Source: Chromatiales bacterium (GTDB lineage: Bacteria > Pseudomonadota > Gammaproteobacteria > UBA6429 > Thiohalophilaceae). Taken from it: a stretch of DNA of 64,000 bases. Location: positions 62,001 to 126,000 of the forward strand of contig JALSSV010000063.1 of NCBI GenBank assembly GCA_026984045.1, written 5' to 3'. The stretch's first letter is position 1. Every line of letters starts with the position of its first letter. Below are positions 1,207-64,000 of the stretch, piece after piece. The translations under genes and the position numbers were made by a program. The notes below the pieces were generated by a model. It saw only the letters and a program-made list of their open reading frames with translations, did not search any database and was not told the DNA's origin.

Positions 1207-2163
<957 letters not shown>

Positions 2164-2531
2164 GAAAAGGTTCCGGGCATGAATATCAATATCTTACCGG
2201 GCATTCCTCCGGCAATTTGTTAAAATCTGGCACATCTCGGGCAGATTCTATCACTTCCTGTCACGGAACACAGGCCGCGGTTCACGACGGCGCCATCTGG
2301 ACCGACGGCCGGCGCTGCGGGAAGGATTCGATTGGGGGATGCCGGTAAAAGGGGCTTCGGCAAGCCGTCTGCAAATAACGCGGAGGGCGCAGAGACGCAG
2401 AGGACACCGAGTTTCCCCATTTGGTGAATGAGCATGGGCAGGGTTGAATGTCGTGAGATACGTCTCGCCCCCCGAATCACACTCTGCGTCTCCGCGTCCT
2501 CGGTGTGACTTCCACCATCACCGAAAGGAAC
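2164..2531. other. accA-dnaE intergenic gap with an inverted repeat
   Basis: This 368-bp stretch separates the dnaE stop from the accA start and holds no credible gene. Just upstream of accA it is AT-richer (2165-2260), a likely place for the accA promoter, though I cannot fix -35 and -10 boxes. The middle carries an imperfect inverted repeat, annotated separately. Confidence 0.6.
2384..2500. repeat. Imperfect inverted repeat, 19-nt arms
   Basis: The arm at 2384-2402 (agggcgcagagacgcagag) is the reverse complement of 2482-2500 except at two positions, and 79 bases separate them. The purine-rich cgcagagacgcagag wording resembles degenerate intergenic repeats scattered in many proteobacterial genomes. 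Its function is unknown. It could act as an mRNA hairpin between dnaE and accA transcripts. Confidence 0.6.
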
Positions 2532-5996
<3,465 letters not shown>

Positions 5997-25925: not shown

Positions 25926-26021
25926 TGAGCGTCTCTCCTGTACGGGTTGGACCTCCATGTACCCCATCTGCCAACCCCTTCCGGGGCACCCGGGCAGACG
26001 TGACGGTACATGTGTGAATTT

Positions 26022-26058
26022 CGCCGATGACCGGTGGTCTGGCCACCGGTCATCGGCG
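26022..26058 (-). promoter_or_regulatory. Leader hairpin of rpsB
   Basis: The sequences 26022-26037 and 26043-26058 are perfect 16-bp reverse complements around a 5-base loop. No T-run follows on the minus strand, so it is not an ordinary terminator. It lies about 20 bases after the predicted rpsB transcription start and some 100 bases before the ATG. In gammaproteobacteria the rpsB leader is known to be structured and to mediate repression by S2, which is the likeliest role here. Confidence 0.6.
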
Positions 26059-50934: not shown

Positions 50935-52308
50935 ATGTCAATCCTGTTCCCCGATCCACGGCAAATGACCGCCCGGCGGCGCCGCATAGGCGCTTGGCTG
51001 GAGACCCTGCTCATCCTGCTGGTCTTCCTGCTGGCCGGCTTCTGGATCGATCCCGACGATCCCTTCTTCCTGCGGGCCGGATTTCCCTGGCTGATCCTGG
51101 CGCCGCTCCTGCCGGCGCTGCGCTACGGCTTCAGCCACGGCTTCCTCTCCGCCCTGCTGCTGGTCGCCCTGCTGGCGCTGGCCTGGCAGGAAGGGGTGTT
51201 CACGGGGCCGCGTTTCCCGGCCGAAATGGCCGTGGGCATGCTGATCATCGGCATGCTCAGCGGCGAGTTCACCGACAGCTACAACCGGCGTCTCAGCCAG
51301 CAACGGGTCATCAACGACTACCAGCGCCTGCGCCTGGACGAGTTCACTCGCAACTACCACCTGCTCAAGGTGTCCCACGATCGCCTCGAACACCGGCTGG
51401 CCGCGTCCGGCCATTCCCTGCGGGGCGCGCTTCTGGAGTTGCGCAAGCATCTCTCCCTGGGCAGGGGTGACGATCTGGCTTCACAGGCGCAACGCATCAT
51501 GGCCATCTTTACCGCCTTCGGCTGGGTGCAGGTGGCCGGCCTGTATGCCGTGCGCAACCGGCGCATGGTGATCCGGCCGCTGGCCATGATCGGCCGGATC
51601 GGCGCCGTGGATCCCTTCGATCCCATGGTGCGTCGTGCGCTGGTGGAAGGCCGCATGGCCACCCTGGCCCAGGAACGGCTGAACGACGAAGAGGCCGCCG
51701 AACGGGAGCTTCTGGCCGTCGTGCCGCTGGTCGATGTCAGCGGCGAAATCTGGGGCATCGTCTGCATCCGCGAAATGCCCTTCATCGCCCTGCAGGAGGA
51801 AAACCTGCGGCTGTTCGCCGTGCTCGGCGGGCACATCGGCGACATCCTGGCTGCCGCGCAACGCCAGCTCGGTACGGAAGCGGACCCGGAATCCTCGGCC
51901 TTCATGACCGAGCTGCGCCGGGCCCTGGCCGATCATCGCCAGTACGGCCTGCCAGCCCTGGTGGTGGCCATCGCCTTTCCCCCGGCCCATCCCGACGCGG
52001 CGCAGATGCAGCAGCTGTTCATCGCTCAAACCCGCGGCCTCGACCGGATCTGGCAACCGGAAGAGGCACCTCATCTGCTCTTCCTGCTGATGCCGCTGAC
52101 TCACCCGGAAGAACTCACCCCCTACCGCCAGCGCATGGAACGGGCCCTGGCGGAACGCTTCGGACAGGGCATGGCGGAACTGGGCATCCGCCTCGTCAGC
52201 CATGTTCTGCAACGACGCGACGAACCGGAAACCCTACTGGAGAACCTGCGTGAAACCGTGGCCATCGCTGGGCGCACCGACGCTGATCTTCGCCGCCCTG
52301 ACGCTTGA
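50935..52308 (+). CDS. pelD: c-di-GMP receptor PelD
   Basis: PelD is the inner-membrane receptor that turns on Pel synthesis when it binds c-di-GMP. The 457-residue protein (P. aeruginosa 455) has four membrane helices (about 20-110), a coiled stalk, a GAF domain (about 170-310) and a degenerate GGDEF domain. The inhibitory-site motif is RGLD at R367 to D370, the very residues and numbers that bind c-di-GMP in P. aeruginosa, with arginines at 398, 400 and 403 near the further contact (R402 there). No active GG(D/E)EF motif is present, so it is a receptor, not a cyclase. Confidence 0.95.
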   Translation: MSILFPDPRQMTARRRRIGAWLETLLILLVFLLAGFWIDPDDPFFLRAGFPWLILAPLLPALRYGFSHGFLSALLLVALLALAWQEGVFTGPRFPAEMAVGMLIIGMLSGEFTDSYNRRLSQQRVINDYQRLRLDEFTRNYHLLKVSHDRLEHRLAASGHSLRGALLELRKHLSLGRGDDLASQAQRIMAIFTAFGWVQVAGLYAVRNRRMVIRPLAMIGRIGAVDPFDPMVRRALVEGRMATLAQERLNDEEAAERELLAVVPLVDVSGEIWGIVCIREMPFIALQEENLRLFAVLGGHIGDILAAAQRQLGTEADPESSAFMTELRRALADHRQYGLPALVVAIAFPPAHPDAAQMQQLFIAQTRGLDRIWQPEEAPHLLFLLMPLTHPEELTPYRQRMERALAERFGQGMAELGIRLVSHVLQRRDEPETLLENLRETVAIAGRTDADLRRPDA

Positions 52309-56717: not shown

Positions 56718-56827
56718 ACACGCCACGGCATTCCGGCCTCCCGGATTGCGCTTGCGCTGCATCCGGGCCAAGGTATCCCTTCATCCGTCCCGTGCCGACA
56801 TTGCAAAGCCACAACAAGGAGAACGTC

Positions 56828-57064
56828 ATGAGTGAACCCGTCATTGCTGCAAAGGAACCGAAAGTCATGGAGCTGGAGCCGGGCACCTATTACTGGTGCG
56901 CCTGCGGCCGTTCGAAGAACCAGCCCTTCTGCGACGGCGCCCACGAGGGCACCGGCATCGAGCCGGTGGCCTTCGAGATCAAGGAAAAACAGCAGGTGGC
57001 CCTGTGTCTGTGCAAGCATACCGCCACCCCACCCTTCTGCGACGGCAGCCACAAGTCGCTTTGA
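56828..57064 (+). CDS. CDGSH-type iron-sulfur protein, tandem motif
   Basis: The 78-residue protein has two CDGSH iron-sulfur motifs: CACGRSKNQPFCDGAH (about residues 24-39) and CLCKHTATPPFCDGSH (about 60-75). Each provides three cysteines and one histidine to bind a 2Fe-2S cluster. Small bacterial tandem CDGSH proteins are thought to act in electron transfer or cluster handling. The ATG has a strong AAGGAG site. It lies 110 bp after the NlpC/P60 gene. Confidence 0.93.
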   Translation: MSEPVIAAKEPKVMELEPGTYYWCACGRSKNQPFCDGAHEGTGIEPVAFEIKEKQQVALCLCKHTATPPFCDGSHKSL

Positions 57065-57105: not shown

Positions 57106-59082
57106 TCAGCCGAGCCGGGAGCGGTAAACGCCGGCATCGACGAAGATCCGGAACAGGTCGCCGTCCAGCTTGCCCTCATTCACTTCGTTGTCGAGGATGG
57201 CCAACGCCAGATCGGTGCTGATCCCCTCGCGGTAGGGACGATCCCCGGCCGTCAGGGCGTCGAAGATGTCGGCAATGGCCATGATCTTCGACTGCACGGG
57301 GATTTCCTCGGCGGAAAGCCCGAGCGGATAGCCGGTGCCGTCGAGCTTTTCGTGGTGGGCATGGGCGATTTCCGGGATCCGGGCCAGCGGCCGCGTCCAG
57401 GGAATCAGGCTCAGGAATTCGAAGGTGTGGCTCACGTGGGATTCGATCTCCCGCCGCTCCTCGGGGTTGAGGCTGCCGTGGGCGAAGCTGAGCACCGAGA
57501 ACTCGTAGTCGCCGATCAGGGGCAGGGATGCTCCATCCCGATCGGTGAAGCGGTATTCGCGGATGGCCTGCAGGCGACCGGTGTTCTTGTCGTAGTAGTA
57601 ATCGGGCTCGTTGACCTCGATGATGGTCTCGAGAAAGCGATCCAGCTTGCGGATCTCCTCCCGAACCTGCGCTTCCACTTTCTCCCGGTGACGGCGGAAT
57701 TCCGCCGGGCTCATGGTGCCGGCTTGCGAAAGATCGAGCAGATCGCGCCAGGCCTGGCGTTCCAAGCAGGCCTTGGCATACTGGAAACGCAGGCGCAGTT
57801 CACGCAGTTCGTAGGGATAGAGCTTCTTGGCCTTGGTCAGCACCCGTTCGCGCACGCCCACCTTGCCGAAGTCGTGCAGCAGGGCCGCATAGCGGATCTC
57901 CTGGATCTGCTCGCGGTCGAAACGCACCGCGCGCAGCGCCGGCAGATCGGCCCGATCCACGGCCATGGCCAGGCGTTCGGTGTAGTCGGCCACCCGGAAG
58001 GAATGGCCGGCGGTGGTGGGATCCCGCGCTTCGATGGCCTGCACCGAGGCCTTGACGAAGCCTTCGAACAGCCCCTCGATGTCCTCGTAGAGGCGGGCGT
58101 TCTTCATGGCGATGGCCACCTGGGCGGAGATGCCGGTGAGGATTTCCAGGTCCTCGCTGGAGAAGGCCTCCGGTCCCTGGCGGGTGTCCACCTGGATCAG
58201 CCCCAGCACTTCCTCGTCGTGCAGCAGGGGAGCACACATGACGCTGCGAATGGCCAGGTTCACCACCGAGTCCTGCGCCCCGTAATGGCGATCCTCCAGC
58301 GCATCCATCAGCAGCAGGGCATTGCCCTGCTCCACCACTTCCCGCACGATGGTCCGGGACAGGGCGTATTCGCCGGTCGCCAGTTCGCCCTCCCGGGAGC
58401 GGCGGACCAGGGTCCGGTAGCGTCCGGAACGGCGGTCGAGGGCCACCACGAAGACCCGCTCGGCACCGGAGAAGATTTCGAACAGCAGATCCGCGATGCG
58501 CCGGTACAGTTCCTGCCGATCGGTGATGGCCCCGAGTGCCACACTGACCTGCACGATGGCCTGCATGCGCTTGAGCAGGGCATCGTCGGCCGCGGCCTCT
58601 TCCTCCCGTGCGGCCCCGCGCAGGCGCTGCAGCAGGCGGGAGGCATCCACCACCATGCTCACGTCCGGCTGGAAATCCCGCTCGGAGACGATGGCCAGCC
58701 CCTCGCCGTCGCTGCCCGCGGCCAGATCGAAGTCGGCCATCTGGCCGGTGTCCGTCGCCTCCGGCACGCTGCGCAGGCGAAACACGGCCTGGGTGTTGCC
58801 GAAGAAGATTTCGTCGCTGTCGGCCAGCTCACGGGGCTGTCCCGGCCGCAGAAAGCGTCCGTGCATCAGGGTGCCGTTGGTGGAGCCGAGATCCTCGACG
58901 AACCAGCGCGCCCCGTCCCGGAAGAGGCGCACATGGCGGCGGCTGATCTCGGCATCTCCGAGACTCAGAAACCCCTCGCGCAGCCCGCTGCCGACCCGCG
59001 AAGAGCGCCCGATGACCAGTTCGTCAGCCAGCTTGACGCGGGTTCCCGAATCGGGCCCCCGTCTGATAATCAGTTCGGCCAA
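57106..59082 (-). CDS. FHA-GAF-HD-GYP signalling protein
   Basis: The 658-residue cytoplasmic protein has an FHA domain (about residues 1-105; VIGRSS, EISRRHVRLF, DLGSTNGT) that reads phosphothreonine, a GAF domain (about 180-335; CAPLLHDEEVLGLIQVDTRQ), and an HD-GYP domain: the metal pair H403-D404 (LLHDFGKVGV), H576-H577 and the GTGYP at 582-586 (HHEKLDGTGYPLG). HD-GYP enzymes hydrolyse c-di-GMP. A stretch of about 110 extra residues (about 420-530) separates HD from HH, so catalytic activity is not certain. It starts with TTG (59080-59082). It converges with the CDGSH gene and is divergent from the kinase cluster; placed between pel and pil genes it may lower c-di-GMP for PelD. Confidence 0.88.
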   Translation of the reverse strand: MAELIIRRGPDSGTRVKLADELVIGRSSRVGSGLREGFLSLGDAEISRRHVRLFRDGARWFVEDLGSTNGTLMHGRFLRPGQPRELADSDEIFFGNTQAVFRLRSVPEATDTGQMADFDLAAGSDGEGLAIVSERDFQPDVSMVVDASRLLQRLRGAAREEEAAADDALLKRMQAIVQVSVALGAITDRQELYRRIADLLFEIFSGAERVFVVALDRRSGRYRTLVRRSREGELATGEYALSRTIVREVVEQGNALLLMDALEDRHYGAQDSVVNLAIRSVMCAPLLHDEEVLGLIQVDTRQGPEAFSSEDLEILTGISAQVAIAMKNARLYEDIEGLFEGFVKASVQAIEARDPTTAGHSFRVADYTERLAMAVDRADLPALRAVRFDREQIQEIRYAALLHDFGKVGVRERVLTKAKKLYPYELRELRLRFQYAKACLERQAWRDLLDLSQAGTMSPAEFRRHREKVEAQVREEIRKLDRFLETIIEVNEPDYYYDKNTGRLQAIREYRFTDRDGASLPLIGDYEFSVLSFAHGSLNPEERREIESHVSHTFEFLSLIPWTRPLARIPEIAHAHHEKLDGTGYPLGLSAEEIPVQSKIMAIADIFDALTAGDRPYREGISTDLALAILDNEVNEGKLDGDLFRIFVDAGVYRSRLG

Positions 59083-59375
59083 GGAAGCCCCCCGTCGGCA
59101 ATGGGGATTGGCGTATCGGACATCCGCAATATCCTCGTGGAGACGGCGCCAATCACGGGAAAAGATTGCGTCATCTGCATGCCCCTTGCAAGCGCGGCCG
59201 GGCGTCTGGCATTTTTTCGGTTTATAACCAATGACCTACAGACACCCGGCGACAGCTTGTCCAGACTCGGCCCCGGAGCGACTTCCGGCGCAGTCCAAAA
59301 TACATAAAAATTTCAAAATATTAGAGATACCGATATAATCCATTACAGGCAGGGAGACAAGAGGACGGAAGGCCG
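59083..59375. other. Divergent promoter region of FHA-HD-GYP and kinase cluster
   Basis: This 293-bp gap has no gene. Its right end, 59288-59345, is AT-rich and holds the candidate promoter for the rightward genes. On the left, a leftward promoter for the HD-GYP gene must lie within 59083-59250 but I cannot identify it. Confidence 0.55.
59311..59339 (+). promoter_or_regulatory. Candidate promoter for the kinase-PilT cluster
   Basis: A perfect TATAAT (59334-59339) follows a weak -35-like TTTCAA (59311-59316) with 17-base spacing. The predicted start is about 30 bases before the ATG at 59376. Confidence 0.55.
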
Positions 59376-59849
59376 ATGGAGAACCCGGATCTGAAGATTC
59401 CCAAGATCCGCAAGCAGGTCAATCTCTGGGTACACCCCGAAGGCCGGGTCGTCGGCTCGCTGTTCCTGCGCGAGCAGAGCGTCCACCATGCCGGCCCGGA
59501 ACGGCCCGATGAGGTGCTGAACCAGGACAGCCCCTTCGTCGTCCTGTATCGCGAGGATCCCGCCGAGCTGCGCTTCTACAATCGCCGCGCCATCGTGCGG
59601 GTGGAATATGCCGACGACGCCCTGCCGGAAAGTGCGCACCTGACCATCCTGCCCTGCCGGCTGGATCTGATGGATGGCAGCCGCCTGGAAGGGGAAATCC
59701 GCGAAATCCTGCCCGCCGACCGGGCCCGGCTGTTCGATTACCTGAACCGGCCCGACGTGCGTTTCCTGCGCCTGCATCTGCCGGAGGGAGGGATCTGCCT
59801 GGTCAACAAGGCCTACGTCATCCATGTCACCACGCCAGGCAATGGCTGA
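59376..59849 (+). CDS. Conserved hypothetical protein before the HEAT kinase
   Basis: The family is not recognised. The 157-residue product has no signal peptide or membrane segment. It is rich in beta-strand-like stretches (KQVNLWVHPEGRVVGSLFL, FVVLYREDPAELRFYNRRAI, LTILPCRLDLMDGSRLEGEI and GICLVNKAYVIHV), suggesting a small beta-barrel, with a charged loop LPADRARLFDYLNRPD between. It is 18 bp before the HEAT-kinase gene, in one transcript with it and the PilT-like genes, so a part in kinase or pilus control is likely by association. Confidence 0.75.
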   Translation: MENPDLKIPKIRKQVNLWVHPEGRVVGSLFLREQSVHHAGPERPDEVLNQDSPFVVLYREDPAELRFYNRRAIVRVEYADDALPESAHLTILPCRLDLMDGSRLEGEIREILPADRARLFDYLNRPDVRFLRLHLPEGGICLVNKAYVIHVTTPGNG

Positions 59850-59867
59850 GGCCGCGAACACGCTATC

Positions 59868-62255
59868 ATGAGTCTGCTGGGTTCCTTCAAGATCAACAAA
59901 GCCATCGGGGTGCTGATCGGGGCCCAGCACGCCTCGCCCCAGGAACTCAGGGAAGCCATCGCCAAAATCAAGAGCACCGGCCGCAGCGCCATTCCCAAAC
60001 TGATCGAGGCGCTGGCCGACGCCCCCAACAACCCGCACATCGAGGGCCTGCTGATCCAGCTGCTGGACAACAAGACCCTGCCCGAATACATCGACGGCCT
60101 GGCCGACGAGGACAAGCGCATCGTCACCGGCGTGATGCGGGTACTGGCCAGGGCCCGTTCCTTCGACGCCAACCGGCTGTACGATCTGTTCGAGGATCCG
60201 GACATCCCCAAGGCGGCCCTGGTGCAGATCCTCCTGGCCCACAAGGACGAACTCAACGCGCGGACCCTGCTCGGCCTGCTCGAACGGGTCGACAAGGACG
60301 TGCGCCAAATGGTCTTCCGGGTGCTCGACCAGGTGGCCAAACCCGACATGATCCCGGATCTGATCCGCTACAGCCGCAGCAAGGATCCGGTGGTCCGCCT
60401 GCACGTGGCCCGCACCCTGTCGCGCTTCAGTACCGAGCCGGTGCGCGACGCCCTGCTCAACCTGCTCAAGGACAGCCACAAGGGCGTGCGCCAGATCGCC
60501 ATCGAGGGGCTCGGCCGGCTCCAGGTCAAGGTGCCCGCCCGGCCCATCGTCCAGCTCCTGCGCGATCCGGATCTCACCGTCCAGGCCAAGGCCATCGACA
60601 CCCTGATCAGCATCCGCGATCCGGAAACGGTCAAGTACCTCATTCCCATCCTCCAGGACGATTCCGAATACATCCGCCGCGCCGCGGTGGAAGTGCTCAA
60701 CGAGGTGGGCGATCCCCGCGCCATCAAGGATCTGCTCAACGCCATGCGCGATCAGGACTGGTGGGTGAAGGTGCGGGCCGCCGACGCCCTCGGCTCCATC
60801 GGTGGCCCCAAGGTGGTGGATGCCGTGATCGGCCTGATCAACGAGAAGGACGAGTTCCTGCGCCGCACCGCGGTGGAGATCCTCAACTCCATCAAGGACG
60901 AGCGGGCCGTCACCCATCTGATCGGCGCCCTCAAGGACAAGGACTGGTGGGTGCGCGAACGGGCCGCCGACGCCCTGGCCAAGATCGGCGACAAGCGGGC
61001 CGTGCCGGCGCTGGTGGAAATGCTGCGCGAACAGCCCGAATCGGCCAGCATCGCCATCAAGGCCCTGGCCGAGCTGGGCGACCCGGCGGCCATCGAACCG
61101 CTCATCGAAGTGCTCAACCACCCCGACGACGTGACCAAGAAGGAAGCCATGCGGGCCCTCCAGCAGCTCACCGACGAAGCCCACTACGAACAGGTCCAGG
61201 AAGCCATCCGCAAGGCCCTGGTGGGCGCCAAGCGCGACGTGGCCGACGTGGGCAACGCCACCATGAAGACCGTGGTGGCCCGCTTCGCCAGCGGCGGCGC
61301 GCCCGAACCGTCCTCGGGCGAACCCTCCGACGCCACCCGGGTCGCCAGCCAGCCGCCGCCTTCCGCCGAAGTGGCGGCCACGCCGCCCTCCGAGATCATC
61401 GTCGACGCCGACAACCTCAAGCCGGGCGACATCCTCGACGACCGCTACAAGGTGATCCGCACCGTGGGCAAGGGCGCCTTCGGCGTGGTGATGCTGGTCG
61501 AGGACACCATGGTCCAGGAACAGATCATCCTCAAGTTCCTCAATGCCCACATGGCCGCCGACGAGAGCGTGATCCAGCGCTTCGTGCACGAACTGCGCTT
61601 CACCCGGCGCATCACCCACCCCAACGTGATCCGGATCTACGACTTCATCACCATCGGCAAGTCCTACGCCATCTCCATGGAGTATTTCGAGAGCCACTCC
61701 CTGGCCCAGGAGATCCGCGCCAAGCGCACCAAGGATTTCGCCCGCAACCTGCGCCTGCTGATCGACATCTGCAAGGGCCTGTCGGTGGCCCATCACCTGA
61801 ACGTGGTGCATCGCGACATCAAGCCGGCCAACATCCTGGTCAACAAGGACGACCTGGTGAAACTGGTGGACTTCGGCCTCGCCGCGGCCGCCAGCCAGGG
61901 CGACGGCTCGCGAATCACCAAGAGCGGTATCCTGGTGGGCACCCCCACCTACATGGCGCCCGAGCAGGTCCGCGGCCGGGCCATCGACACCCGCACCGAC
62001 ATCTACAGCCTGGGGATCGTCATGTACGAGATGTTCACCGGCCGCCCGCCCTACAAGGAAAAGGATCACATGGCCACCCTGTTCAAGCACGTGGAAGGCA
62101 AGGCGCCCCCCGCCAGCGAGAAGAACCCGGCCATCGACGAAAAGCTCAATGCCATCATCATGCGCGCCATCCACGTGGACCCCGAAAAGCGCTACCAGAC
62201 CATCGACGAGCTGCAGAAGGATCTGGAAACCTACGTGCAGGAGGCCGCCGCCTGA
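59868..62255 (+). CDS. HEAT-repeat Ser/Thr protein kinase
   Basis: The 795-residue protein has an N-terminal array of HEAT or PBS-lyase-type repeats (about residues 20-460; for example DQDWWVKVRAADALGSIGGP and KDWWVRERAADALAKIGDKR), a low-complexity linker, and a eukaryote-like kinase domain (about 525-795). The kinase has the G-loop GKGAFGVV, K556 in IILKFL, HRDIKPANI with D650, D668-F-G and APEQVRG. No transmembrane helix is evident, unlike many bacterial kinases with sensor domains. It overlaps pilT by one base (TGATG), so kinase and pilus ATPase are co-expressed. HEAT arrays bind partners, here perhaps pilus ATPases. Confidence 0.92.
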   Translation: MSLLGSFKINKAIGVLIGAQHASPQELREAIAKIKSTGRSAIPKLIEALADAPNNPHIEGLLIQLLDNKTLPEYIDGLADEDKRIVTGVMRVLARARSFDANRLYDLFEDPDIPKAALVQILLAHKDELNARTLLGLLERVDKDVRQMVFRVLDQVAKPDMIPDLIRYSRSKDPVVRLHVARTLSRFSTEPVRDALLNLLKDSHKGVRQIAIEGLGRLQVKVPARPIVQLLRDPDLTVQAKAIDTLISIRDPETVKYLIPILQDDSEYIRRAAVEVLNEVGDPRAIKDLLNAMRDQDWWVKVRAADALGSIGGPKVVDAVIGLINEKDEFLRRTAVEILNSIKDERAVTHLIGALKDKDWWVRERAADALAKIGDKRAVPALVEMLREQPESASIAIKALAELGDPAAIEPLIEVLNHPDDVTKKEAMRALQQLTDEAHYEQVQEAIRKALVGAKRDVADVGNATMKTVVARFASGGAPEPSSGEPSDATRVASQPPPSAEVAATPPSEIIVDADNLKPGDILDDRYKVIRTVGKGAFGVVMLVEDTMVQEQIILKFLNAHMAADESVIQRFVHELRFTRRITHPNVIRIYDFITIGKSYAISMEYFESHSLAQEIRAKRTKDFARNLRLLIDICKGLSVAHHLNVVHRDIKPANILVNKDDLVKLVDFGLAAAASQGDGSRITKSGILVGTPTYMAPEQVRGRAIDTRTDIYSLGIVMYEMFTGRPPYKEKDHMATLFKHVEGKAPPASEKNPAIDEKLNAIIMRAIHVDPEKRYQTIDELQKDLETYVQEAAA

Positions 62256-63349
62256 TGGCCCGCCTCGATGCCTTTCTCAAGCTGGGCCGCGAGCAGGGCT
62301 GCTCCGACATCCACCTGGCAGTGGGCACCCCGCCCATGATCCGCCTGCATGGCGAGCTGCAGCCCATCAAGTACCGGGATCTCAGCCGCGACGAGCTGCA
62401 CGACCTGATCTACGAGATCCTCGAACCGGAACAGCAGACGGTCTTCGACCAGGGCGAGGATCTCGACATGTCCTACGTGGACGAGGACGGCGGACGTTAC
62501 CGGGTCAACCTGTTTCGCAAGATGACCGGCGTGGCCGGGGTGTTCCGGGTGATTCCGCCGAAGATCCCCACCATGGCCGAACTGGGGCTGCCCCCGGTGG
62601 TCGAGAAGATGCTGCATGCCAACCAGGGGCTGATCCTGGTCACCGGCGCCACCGGCACCGGCAAGACCACCACCCTGGCGGCGATGATCGACTGGCTCAA
62701 CCGCAACCGCCGCTACAACATCATCACCCTGGAAGATCCCATCGAGTTCATGCACGAGAGCAAGGAATCGCTGGTGGTGCAGCGCAGCGTGGGGGTGCAC
62801 GTGAAGAGCTTCAGCGAAGGGCTCCACGACGCCCTGCGCGAGGATCCGGACGTAATCCTGGTGGGCGAGCTGCGCGATCCCGAAACCATCGGCCTGGCCA
62901 TGACCGCGGCCGAAACCGGCCATCTGGTGCTGGGCACGCTGCACACCACCTCGGCGGTCAAGACCCTGGATCGGATCATCGACGCCATGCCCACCGAGCA
63001 GAAGCCGCTGGCCGCCACCTTCCTCGCCCAGCACCTGCAGGGCGTGATCAGCCAGAAGCTGGTGCGCACGGCCGACGGCCGCGGGCGCAGGGCGATCCTG
63101 GAAATCATGGTCAACACCCCCGGCATCGCCAACCTGATCCTCAACCGCAAGATCTTCCAGATCCCCGCCAGCCTCCAGACCGGCCGCGAGCTGGGCATGC
63201 AGCTCATGGATCAGGCCCTGCTGGAGGCCATCCAGCGCAAGGAAATCGACCCGGACGACGCCTACGTGCACGCCACCGACAAGAAACAGTTCCAGCGCTT
63301 CGTCACCAACCCGGAGCTGCTGCCCCAGGTCAACCTGGCGGTGAGCTGA
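62255..63349 (+). CDS. pilT: PilT-family type IV pilus retraction ATPase (first paralogue)
   Basis: The 364-residue hexameric ATPase powers pilus retraction. It shows the N-terminal GCSDIHLAVGTPPMIRLHGE, Walker A GATGTGKTTTLAAM, the Asp box TLEDPIEFMHESK, Walker B ILVGELRDPETI and the His box TGHLVLGTLHTTSA. The C terminus lacks the exact AIRNLIRE motif of canonical PilT and reads IANLILNRKIFQIPASLQTG, which is nearer to PilU-type retraction ATPases. A second paralogue follows 6 bp later. Confidence 0.9.
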   Translation: MARLDAFLKLGREQGCSDIHLAVGTPPMIRLHGELQPIKYRDLSRDELHDLIYEILEPEQQTVFDQGEDLDMSYVDEDGGRYRVNLFRKMTGVAGVFRVIPPKIPTMAELGLPPVVEKMLHANQGLILVTGATGTGKTTTLAAMIDWLNRNRRYNIITLEDPIEFMHESKESLVVQRSVGVHVKSFSEGLHDALREDPDVILVGELRDPETIGLAMTAAETGHLVLGTLHTTSAVKTLDRIIDAMPTEQKPLAATFLAQHLQGVISQKLVRTADGRGRRAILEIMVNTPGIANLILNRKIFQIPASLQTGRELGMQLMDQALLEAIQRKEIDPDDAYVHATDKKQFQRFVTNPELLPQVNLAVS

Positions 63350-63355
63350 GACGCC

Positions 63356-64000
63356 ATGGCCCGCATCAACGCCTTCCTGGAACTGGTGGTCAAGCAGAAG
63401 GGATCGGATCTGCATCTGATCTCGGGCAACCCCCCACGGCTGCGGCTCAACGGCGAGACCTTCCCGGTCAAGTACCGGGAACTGACCGCCGACGAGACGC
63501 GGGATCTGCTCTACGAGATCATGACACCCCTGCAGCGCCAGCACTTCGAGCAGGAAAACGGCGTGGACTTCGCCTACGAGGCCGAAGGGCTGGCCCGCTT
63601 CCGGGTCAACGTCTTCGAACACCTGCGGGGCATCGGCGCCGTGTTCCGGGTGATTCCCACCGAAGTGCAGAGCCTGCAGAAGCTGGGCCTGCCGCCGGTG
63701 CTCAAGAACTTCTGCCGCCAGCGCAAGGGCCTGATCCTGGTCACCGGGCCGACCGGCTCCGGCAAGTCCACCACCCTGGCGGCGATGATCGATTTCATCA
63801 ACCGCGAGCGCAAGGGCCACATCATCACCATCGAGGATCCGGTGGAGTTCCTGCACAAGAACCGCAACTGCCTCATCTCCCAGCGGGAGGTGGGCAGCCA
63901 TACGCCCTCCTTCGCCAGCGCCCTGCACTCGGCCCTGCGCGAGGATCCGGACGTGGTCCTGGTGGGCGAACTGCGGGATCTCGAAACCATTCACCTGGCC
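63356..64000 (+). CDS. PilT/PilU-family ATPase (second paralogue), 3' end outside window
   Basis: The 215 visible codons start MARINAFLELVVKQKGSDLH and carry LISGNPPRLRLNGE, Walker A GPTGSGKSTTLAAM, the Asp box TIEDPVEFLHKNR and Walker B VLVGELRDLETI. It resembles the first paralogue but differs at many positions (Walker A P-T-G-S, for example), so it is an old duplication rather than a recent copy. The window ends before the His box. PilT-PilU pairs are typical of twitching systems. Confidence 0.9.
   Translation, partial: MARINAFLELVVKQKGSDLHLISGNPPRLRLNGETFPVKYRELTADETRDLLYEIMTPLQRQHFEQENGVDFAYEAEGLARFRVNVFEHLRGIGAVFRVIPTEVQSLQKLGLPPVLKNFCRQRKGLILVTGPTGSGKSTTLAAMIDFINRERKGHIITIEDPVEFLHKNRNCLISQREVGSHTPSFASALHSALREDPDVVLVGELRDLETIHLA

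Follow-up and report, generated by a model that had tools for sequence, protein, structure and literature searches.

The last part of a 64-kb stretch of contig C63 (hereafter the window), from a 2.98-Mb genome that is 99% complete, carries a gene for an FHA-GAF-HD-GYP protein (hereafter FHA-HD-GYP) that faces, across a divergent intergenic region, an operon for a 157-residue protein (DUF157), a HEAT-repeat Ser/Thr kinase and two PilT-like motors (PilT1 and PilT2), with a tandem-FHA protein (FHA2) encoded just beyond the window (Table 1). Domain assignments are Pfam profile matches against Pfam cut-offs, and the PilT family is that of TIGR01420 (cut-off 319 bits). The arrangement described in the original prediction, with FHA-HD-GYP divergent from the kinase, the kinase stop codon overlapping the pilT-like start codon and a second pilT-like gene next, is confirmed by coordinates and profiles (the kinase TGA and PilT1 ATG share the sequence TGATG). 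What had been missed is the DUF157 gene, which lies between FHA-HD-GYP and the kinase, and FHA2, which begins 528 bases past the window end and 50 bases after PilT2, and after which comes an inverted resistance-nodulation-division efflux operon. A sigma-70-like site in the divergent region (TTCAAA-16-TATAAT, 59312-59339, + strand; 10 of 12 matches, shuffles giving a mean of 0.2) faces the DUF157/kinase operon. An RNA element in the kinase/FHA-HD-GYP region was considered and rejected, as the sole Rfam match of the window, t44 RNA (RF00127, 74.8 bits; 25946-26034, - strand), is far away.

The named relatives are Chromatiales and Gammaproteobacteria metagenome-assembled genomes, and the comparisons cover an order sample (n = 40) and a class sample (n = 370). 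The core DUF157-kinase-PilT1-PilT2 is an operon whose order is retained over roughly 25 gammaproteobacterial families. Of the 40 order genomes, 27 carry one copy of the kinase ortholog and one more (G021) has a kinase 5′ end; PilT1 then PilT2 follow the kinase in 24/24 order loci with downstream sequence. At class level it is found in 46 of the 370 genomes, two of which (27-29% identical) are without the operon; the kinase-PilT1 pair is kept in 36 of 40 further class loci, nearly always with PilT2, and the DUF157 gene is ahead in most. Wherever an order locus extends far enough, FHA2 comes after PilT2.

Table 1. Genes and features of the kinase/PilT block, its pel-side flank and the cyclase-FHA genes of other loci.
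Feature	Position	Strand	Remarks
FHA-GAF-HD-GYP gene	57106-59082	-	658 amino acids; TTG start; Pfam
Divergent intergenic region	59083-59375	none	Contains sigma-70-like site
DUF157 gene	59376-59849	+	157 amino acids; first of operon; 46 orthologs immediately 5′ of kinase
HEAT-repeat Ser/Thr kinase	59868-62255	+	Pfam; kinase domain about 61446-62201
PilT1	62255-63349	+	364 amino acids; TIGR01420 432 bits
PilT2	63356-64000 in window; ends at window-equivalent 64477 (L002:7357-8478)	+	TIGR01420 466 bits
FHA2	L002:8529-9200 (window-equivalent 64528-65199)		223 amino acids; beyond window; FHA 75 bits
PelD	50935-52308		pel genes upstream of block: PelD, PelE, PelF, PelG, ending 56195
NlpC/P60 gene	56205-56717	+	Pfam; flank of block, conserved within order
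CDGSH-type iron-sulphur protein gene	about 56822-57064	+	Small; repeated C-D-G-x-H motif; no Pfam match in stretch tested
Cyclase-FHA genes	L131:12662-13552; L144:12627-13514; also L134, L135, L136, L140, L141		Class III cyclase domain fused to FHA

Conservation of key residues was read from ortholog alignments of the kinase (n = 63), FHA-HD-GYP (n = 19) and FHA2 (n = 36). The kinase gene product combines HEAT repeats (206 bits) with a Pkinase domain (179 bits), and no Pfam domain besides HEAT-type repeats and the kinase was found in it. The Hanks-type (PknB-like) motifs, i.e. the VAIK-type Lys, HRD, DFG and APE, are present in 63/63 sequences (one DFG with Y for F, some APE with S for A), and K556, HRD 648-650, D668, G670, P698, E699 and the activation-loop T684 are identical in all of them. 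An identity as an anti-phage defence kinase (PD-T4-6 and others) was rejected, as the matches are generic to the Hanks kinase domain with one HEAT match in addition, and the context is one of motor genes. The DUF157 protein, whose two halves are weakly alike, gives a weak match to DUF6812 (20.4 bits, below the cut-off of 27.1); this protein and the HEAT repeats are candidates for input sensing.

PilT1 and PilT2 are PilT/PilU type IVa motor ATPases, both over the TIGR01420 cut-off and with Walker A/B, Asp and His boxes intact. The motor tree, which includes canonical PilT and PilU from nine genomes, renders PilT1 monophyletic (100/100) and PilT2 monophyletic (99/94), each as a clade of its own outside canonical PilT and PilU, whose clades were told apart via gene order and sequence, with no named references used. 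Neither motor is therefore a canonical PilT or PilU ortholog, although both may work like PilT or PilU. The NLIRE stretch is kept in canonical PilT, partly kept in PilT2 and lost in PilT1. The canonical PilT and PilU pair is present in 8/8 operon-bearing genomes checked, and one close relative, in which the operon is missing, carries that pair only.

FHA2 has an N-terminal FHA domain that keeps the core residues of the fold (GR, S-x-x-H and N-G), a short tail with two Thr motifs, and a second, FHA-like C-terminal half that is degenerate, has none of these core elements and is recognised by sequence search. Motif 1 directly follows the first FHA in the orthologs ([YF]-E-x-T-M-F-[ILV]-x-A-E), and motif 2 lies ten residues on ([hydrophobic]-[ED]-x-T-x-[hydrophobic]-[hydrophobic]). 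The two threonines, T103 and T113, show no variation across the 36 sequences, with Glu or Asp at -2 in 100% (T103) and 94% (T113) and hydrophobic residues at -3, +2 and +3 in 97-100%. These motifs fit the published consensus of self-binding FHA tails in GarA, OdhI and the Bdellovibrio DgcB (hydrophobic at -3, Glu at -2, hydrophobic at +2/+3; PMC6733907) except at +1, which is Met or Gln in FHA2 and Ser in the known cases; the GarA sequence around pThr22, ETTSVF, was checked against the PDB. The background frequency of the self-motif is 0.4% of Thr in the window proteins. A scan of conserved Ser/Thr columns over six protein families returned T103 and T113 as the only conserved Thr that fit it, and a search for the Thr self-motif in FHA-HD-GYP, the kinase, the motors and DUF157 gave none. 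Two further sites flagged in the scan are serines, one within a HEAT helix of the kinase, the other Ser142 of FHA-HD-GYP. Taken together, FHA2 appears from these motifs to be the likeliest phospho-substrate of the module. Elsewhere in the source genome, on contig C56 (about 1277-3913; L201, L205, L212), a Ser/Thr kinase and a PP2C phosphatase adjoin a tandem-FHA paralog of FHA2, whose tail has a single motif (FESTVIL), and a further FHA gene carrying ETTAIY. The position of this paralog beside the other two genes suggests that FHA proteins of its type accompany kinases generally.

The FHA-HD-GYP protein comprises FHA (residues 23-95, 53 bits), GAF (188-326), HD (358-419) and HD_5 (531-643, 118 bits) domains, all over the Pfam cut-offs; an insertion of nearly constant length (about 105 residues) interrupts the HD domain and separates the HD motif from the GYP half. 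Its HHExxDGTGYP motif occurs once in the window, at a chance expectation of 0. The HD and HHExxDGxGYP motifs with their metal ligands are present in 19/19 orthologs, and H360, H403, D404, K407, H549, H576, H577, E578, D581, G582, G584, Y585, P586 and D605 of the HD-GYP part, as well as G25, R26, S47, R48, H50, S67 and N69 of the FHA domain, are identical throughout. The PDB matches of the HD-GYP part are 4mcw and 5z7c, the latter a cyclic GMP-AMP phosphodiesterase. The protein is thus predicted from sequence to be a cyclic di-GMP (c-di-GMP) phosphodiesterase gated by phosphothreonine, and since the residues needed by FHA, kinase and HD-GYP are invariant, the phospho/c-di-GMP link between them that had been envisaged is plausible.

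Full-length FHA-HD-GYP orthologs are found in 13/40 order and 7/370 class genomes. All seven class genomes carry the kinase, and all seven copies, from five families, lie divergent beside it; the co-occurrence with the kinase has p of about 3e-7 under independence, a value that the kinship among the genomes inflates in significance, though five families are involved. Among 19 distinct genomes with FHA-HD-GYP, 15 have it divergent beside the DUF157 gene or the kinase, and two further loci stop at a contig break towards the kinase but have the usual NlpC gene on the opposite flank. Absence of co-occurrence across genomes, which the original prediction named as its refutation, is hence not what is seen: the core is kept over many families, and where a full-length FHA-HD-GYP gene exists it almost always lies next to the core in divergent orientation. 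Class homologs whose match is confined to the catalytic half (about residues 270-655, insertion included) have other N-termini, with no FHA by eye (6 of 7 readable; L163-L168), so that in this sample an FHA fused to the insertion-bearing HD type is found together with the kinase operon. An unlinked FHA-HD-GYP in genome G028 (L170, contig C15, 6598-11056) adjoins a PilB/GspE-like ATPase and a PtsP-like gene.

In seven class loci without FHA2 (families f109, f53, f57, f75 and f41), a gene next to PilT2 encodes FHA fused to a class III adenylate/guanylate cyclase domain; in L131 PilT2 and the cyclase-FHA gene are separated by an aspartyl-protease-like gene, and L144 has a similar one. FHA2 and cyclase-FHA are mutually exclusive in the sampled class loci, and FHA-HD-GYP loci have FHA2 wherever the contig reaches (5 versus 0 in class loci), both patterns including clade effects. 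These distributions support the coupling of an FHA-read phospho-signal to a second messenger that differs by lineage. FHA-cyclases occur elsewhere too, one being encoded on contig C79 of the source genome.

The gene set, its order and orthology, the conserved active sites and the invariant Thr motifs are all direct observations, and on them we build the tentative proposal, held at somewhat less than even confidence, of a conserved Ser/Thr-phosphorylation module that acts on a dedicated second PilT-like motor pair. The cytosolic HEAT-repeat kinase would phosphorylate FHA2 at Thr103 and/or Thr113, and the phosphothreonine would be bound by an FHA domain, be it that of FHA2 itself, of a neighbouring FHA2 or of FHA-HD-GYP, as in GarA, OdhI and DgcB. 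The resulting rearrangement of FHA2 may alter its engagement with PilT1/PilT2, and hence the action of these spare motors on type IV pili. Some lineages, including that of the source genome, would have gained the divergent FHA-HD-GYP, with which the phospho-signal would also change c-di-GMP hydrolysis near the motors, whereas in others a nucleotide cyclase-FHA beside PilT2 would take its place.

Several points weigh against this proposal. Phosphorylation of FHA2 by the kinase, the binding partners of the FHA domains, the effect of FHA2 on PilT1/PilT2, the local change in c-di-GMP and the pilus output are steps that we infer. Structure models built from shallow alignments are poor for both FHA2 (mean pLDDT 53) and DUF157 (mean pLDDT 51), and a Foldseek search with the FHA2 model hit FHA domains but gave no aligned range, such that the second FHA rests on sequence search. 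Ser142 in the FHA-HD-GYP linker resembles the self-motif but is always Ser and never Thr, and FHA domains favour phosphothreonine. The operon has no phosphatase gene, and as the source genome encodes four kinases over the cut-off, 11 FHA domains and three PP2C phosphatases, the partners of the kinase and of the FHA domains may be other proteins. FHA2 is missing from many families and FHA-HD-GYP from about half of the operon-bearing order genomes, so that neither is essential to the core, and FHA-HD-GYP lies away from the kinase in 2/19 genomes (G028 and G016). The absences and unlinked copies of FHA-HD-GYP, together with the three other kinases over the cut-off and many FHA proteins of the genome, would suit a real kinase-PilT-FHA2 operon for which FHA-HD-GYP is a mere neighbour that acts on the general c-di-GMP pool, its FHA reading phosphoproteins of other kinases. 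We regard this as unlikely, if the most serious of the alternatives, given that every full-length class copy occupies the same divergent position in five families, that FHA is absent from the HD homologs that have no kinase linkage, and that FHA-HD-GYP is the only HD_5 match in a genome with 31 GGDEF domains.

The HD-GYP part could instead dock rather than hydrolyse, with the GYP motif recruiting proteins to the PilT-like motors and FHA making this phospho-dependent, for which the RpfG complex, which binds PilT/PilU and controls pili independently of c-di-GMP synthesis by the GGDEF partners (PMC3749722), offers a precedent; yet the metal ligands and GYP loop are invariant in 19/19 orthologs, as expected of an active enzyme, and the block has no PilZ gene, which makes docking improbable. 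A slightly lower probability still attaches to PilT1/PilT2 driving another machine (a minor pilus, a competence pilus or a secretion system) under control of the kinase module. Neither paralog groups with canonical PilT or PilU, PilT1 has no NLIRE stretch, and pilin or assembly genes are absent from the block, all of which would fit; however, both motors exceed the PilT/PilU family cut-off and in the tree sit nearer one canonical clade than its counterpart, and all operon genomes checked have the canonical pair. Least probable is the model first put forward, in which the module sets the c-di-GMP seen by PelD and so switches between Pel polysaccharide and pilus retraction. The block was said to lie just after pel, and pel is indeed upstream at about 1 kb, but the NlpC/P60 gene, probably a conserved flank and not a switch component, and the CDGSH gene, sitting between it and FHA-HD-GYP, intervene. 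PelD does align with the solved c-di-GMP receptor domain of P. aeruginosa PelD, and the 31 GGDEF domains indicate that c-di-GMP signalling exists in this genome. PelG is nonetheless found in only 6/40 order genomes, is adjacent to the block only here and is unlinked wherever visible outside the source genome (in the other genome of the genus linkage is possible, as the contig ends there), and 10 of the 13 order genomes with FHA-HD-GYP are without it. Linkage to pel is thus not conserved, and a Pel switch is not supported as a general function; Pel is an incidental neighbour outside the module, even though PelD in this strain could sense a change in c-di-GMP.

Control of pilus retraction motors is known via c-di-GMP receptors and via two-component and chemosensory pathways. 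If the phosphorylation module proposed here is real, it would give pilus behaviour a new input, in the form of a eukaryote-like kinase that works with readers of phosphothreonine and is linked genetically to a motor pair of its own in some 25 gammaproteobacterial families, and would provide a natural case of a single phospho-signal wired to different second messengers by lineage. The model makes concrete predictions, naming two threonines, one kinase and two motors. More broadly, and with more reserve than for the module itself, it is conceivable that a widespread, undescribed Hanks-kinase/FHA system controls a second retraction-type motor pair and is coupled via interchangeable FHA enzymes, a c-di-GMP phosphodiesterase or a cyclic AMP-type cyclase according to family.

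A survey of the literature on PilT with FHA, HEAT or Ser/Thr kinases, with thin coverage of subscription journals, found no account of this gene set; precedents were found for single links (DgcB; RpfG-PilT/PilU) and none for the whole. The HD-GYP/GGDEF/PilZ complex of RpfG in Xanthomonas campestris binds PilT and PilU and controls pili (PMC3749722), and thus likewise links an HD-GYP protein to PilT/PilU motors, although in that case the input comes from a two-component phosphorelay plus a PilZ adaptor, and neither an FHA domain nor a Ser/Thr kinase takes part. In Bdellovibrio bacteriovorus, DgcB (FHA-GGDEF) is interpreted as a second-messenger enzyme gated by phosphothreonine (PMC6733907) and shares with FHA-HD-GYP an FHA on a c-di-GMP enzyme; FHA-HD-GYP, in contrast, is expected to break c-di-GMP down instead of producing it, contains a GAF domain, carries no Thr tail motif itself, and has genetic linkage to a kinase and motors. 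With canonical PilT/PilU the two motors share the TIGR01420 family and intact ATPase motifs, but they form separate clades in an operon of their own with a kinase and an FHA protein, both sets being present in the operon-bearing genomes checked. The switch formed by GarA/OdhI with PknB/PknG in actinobacteria resembles the module in its PknB-like kinase domain and in an E-x-T-x-hydrophobic-hydrophobic tail beside FHA. In FHA2, however, the tail comes after rather than before the FHA, carries two motifs and is joined by a second FHA-like domain, the kinase bears HEAT repeats, and the block is tied to PilT-type motors, whereas GarA/OdhI is tied to 2-oxoglutarate metabolism.

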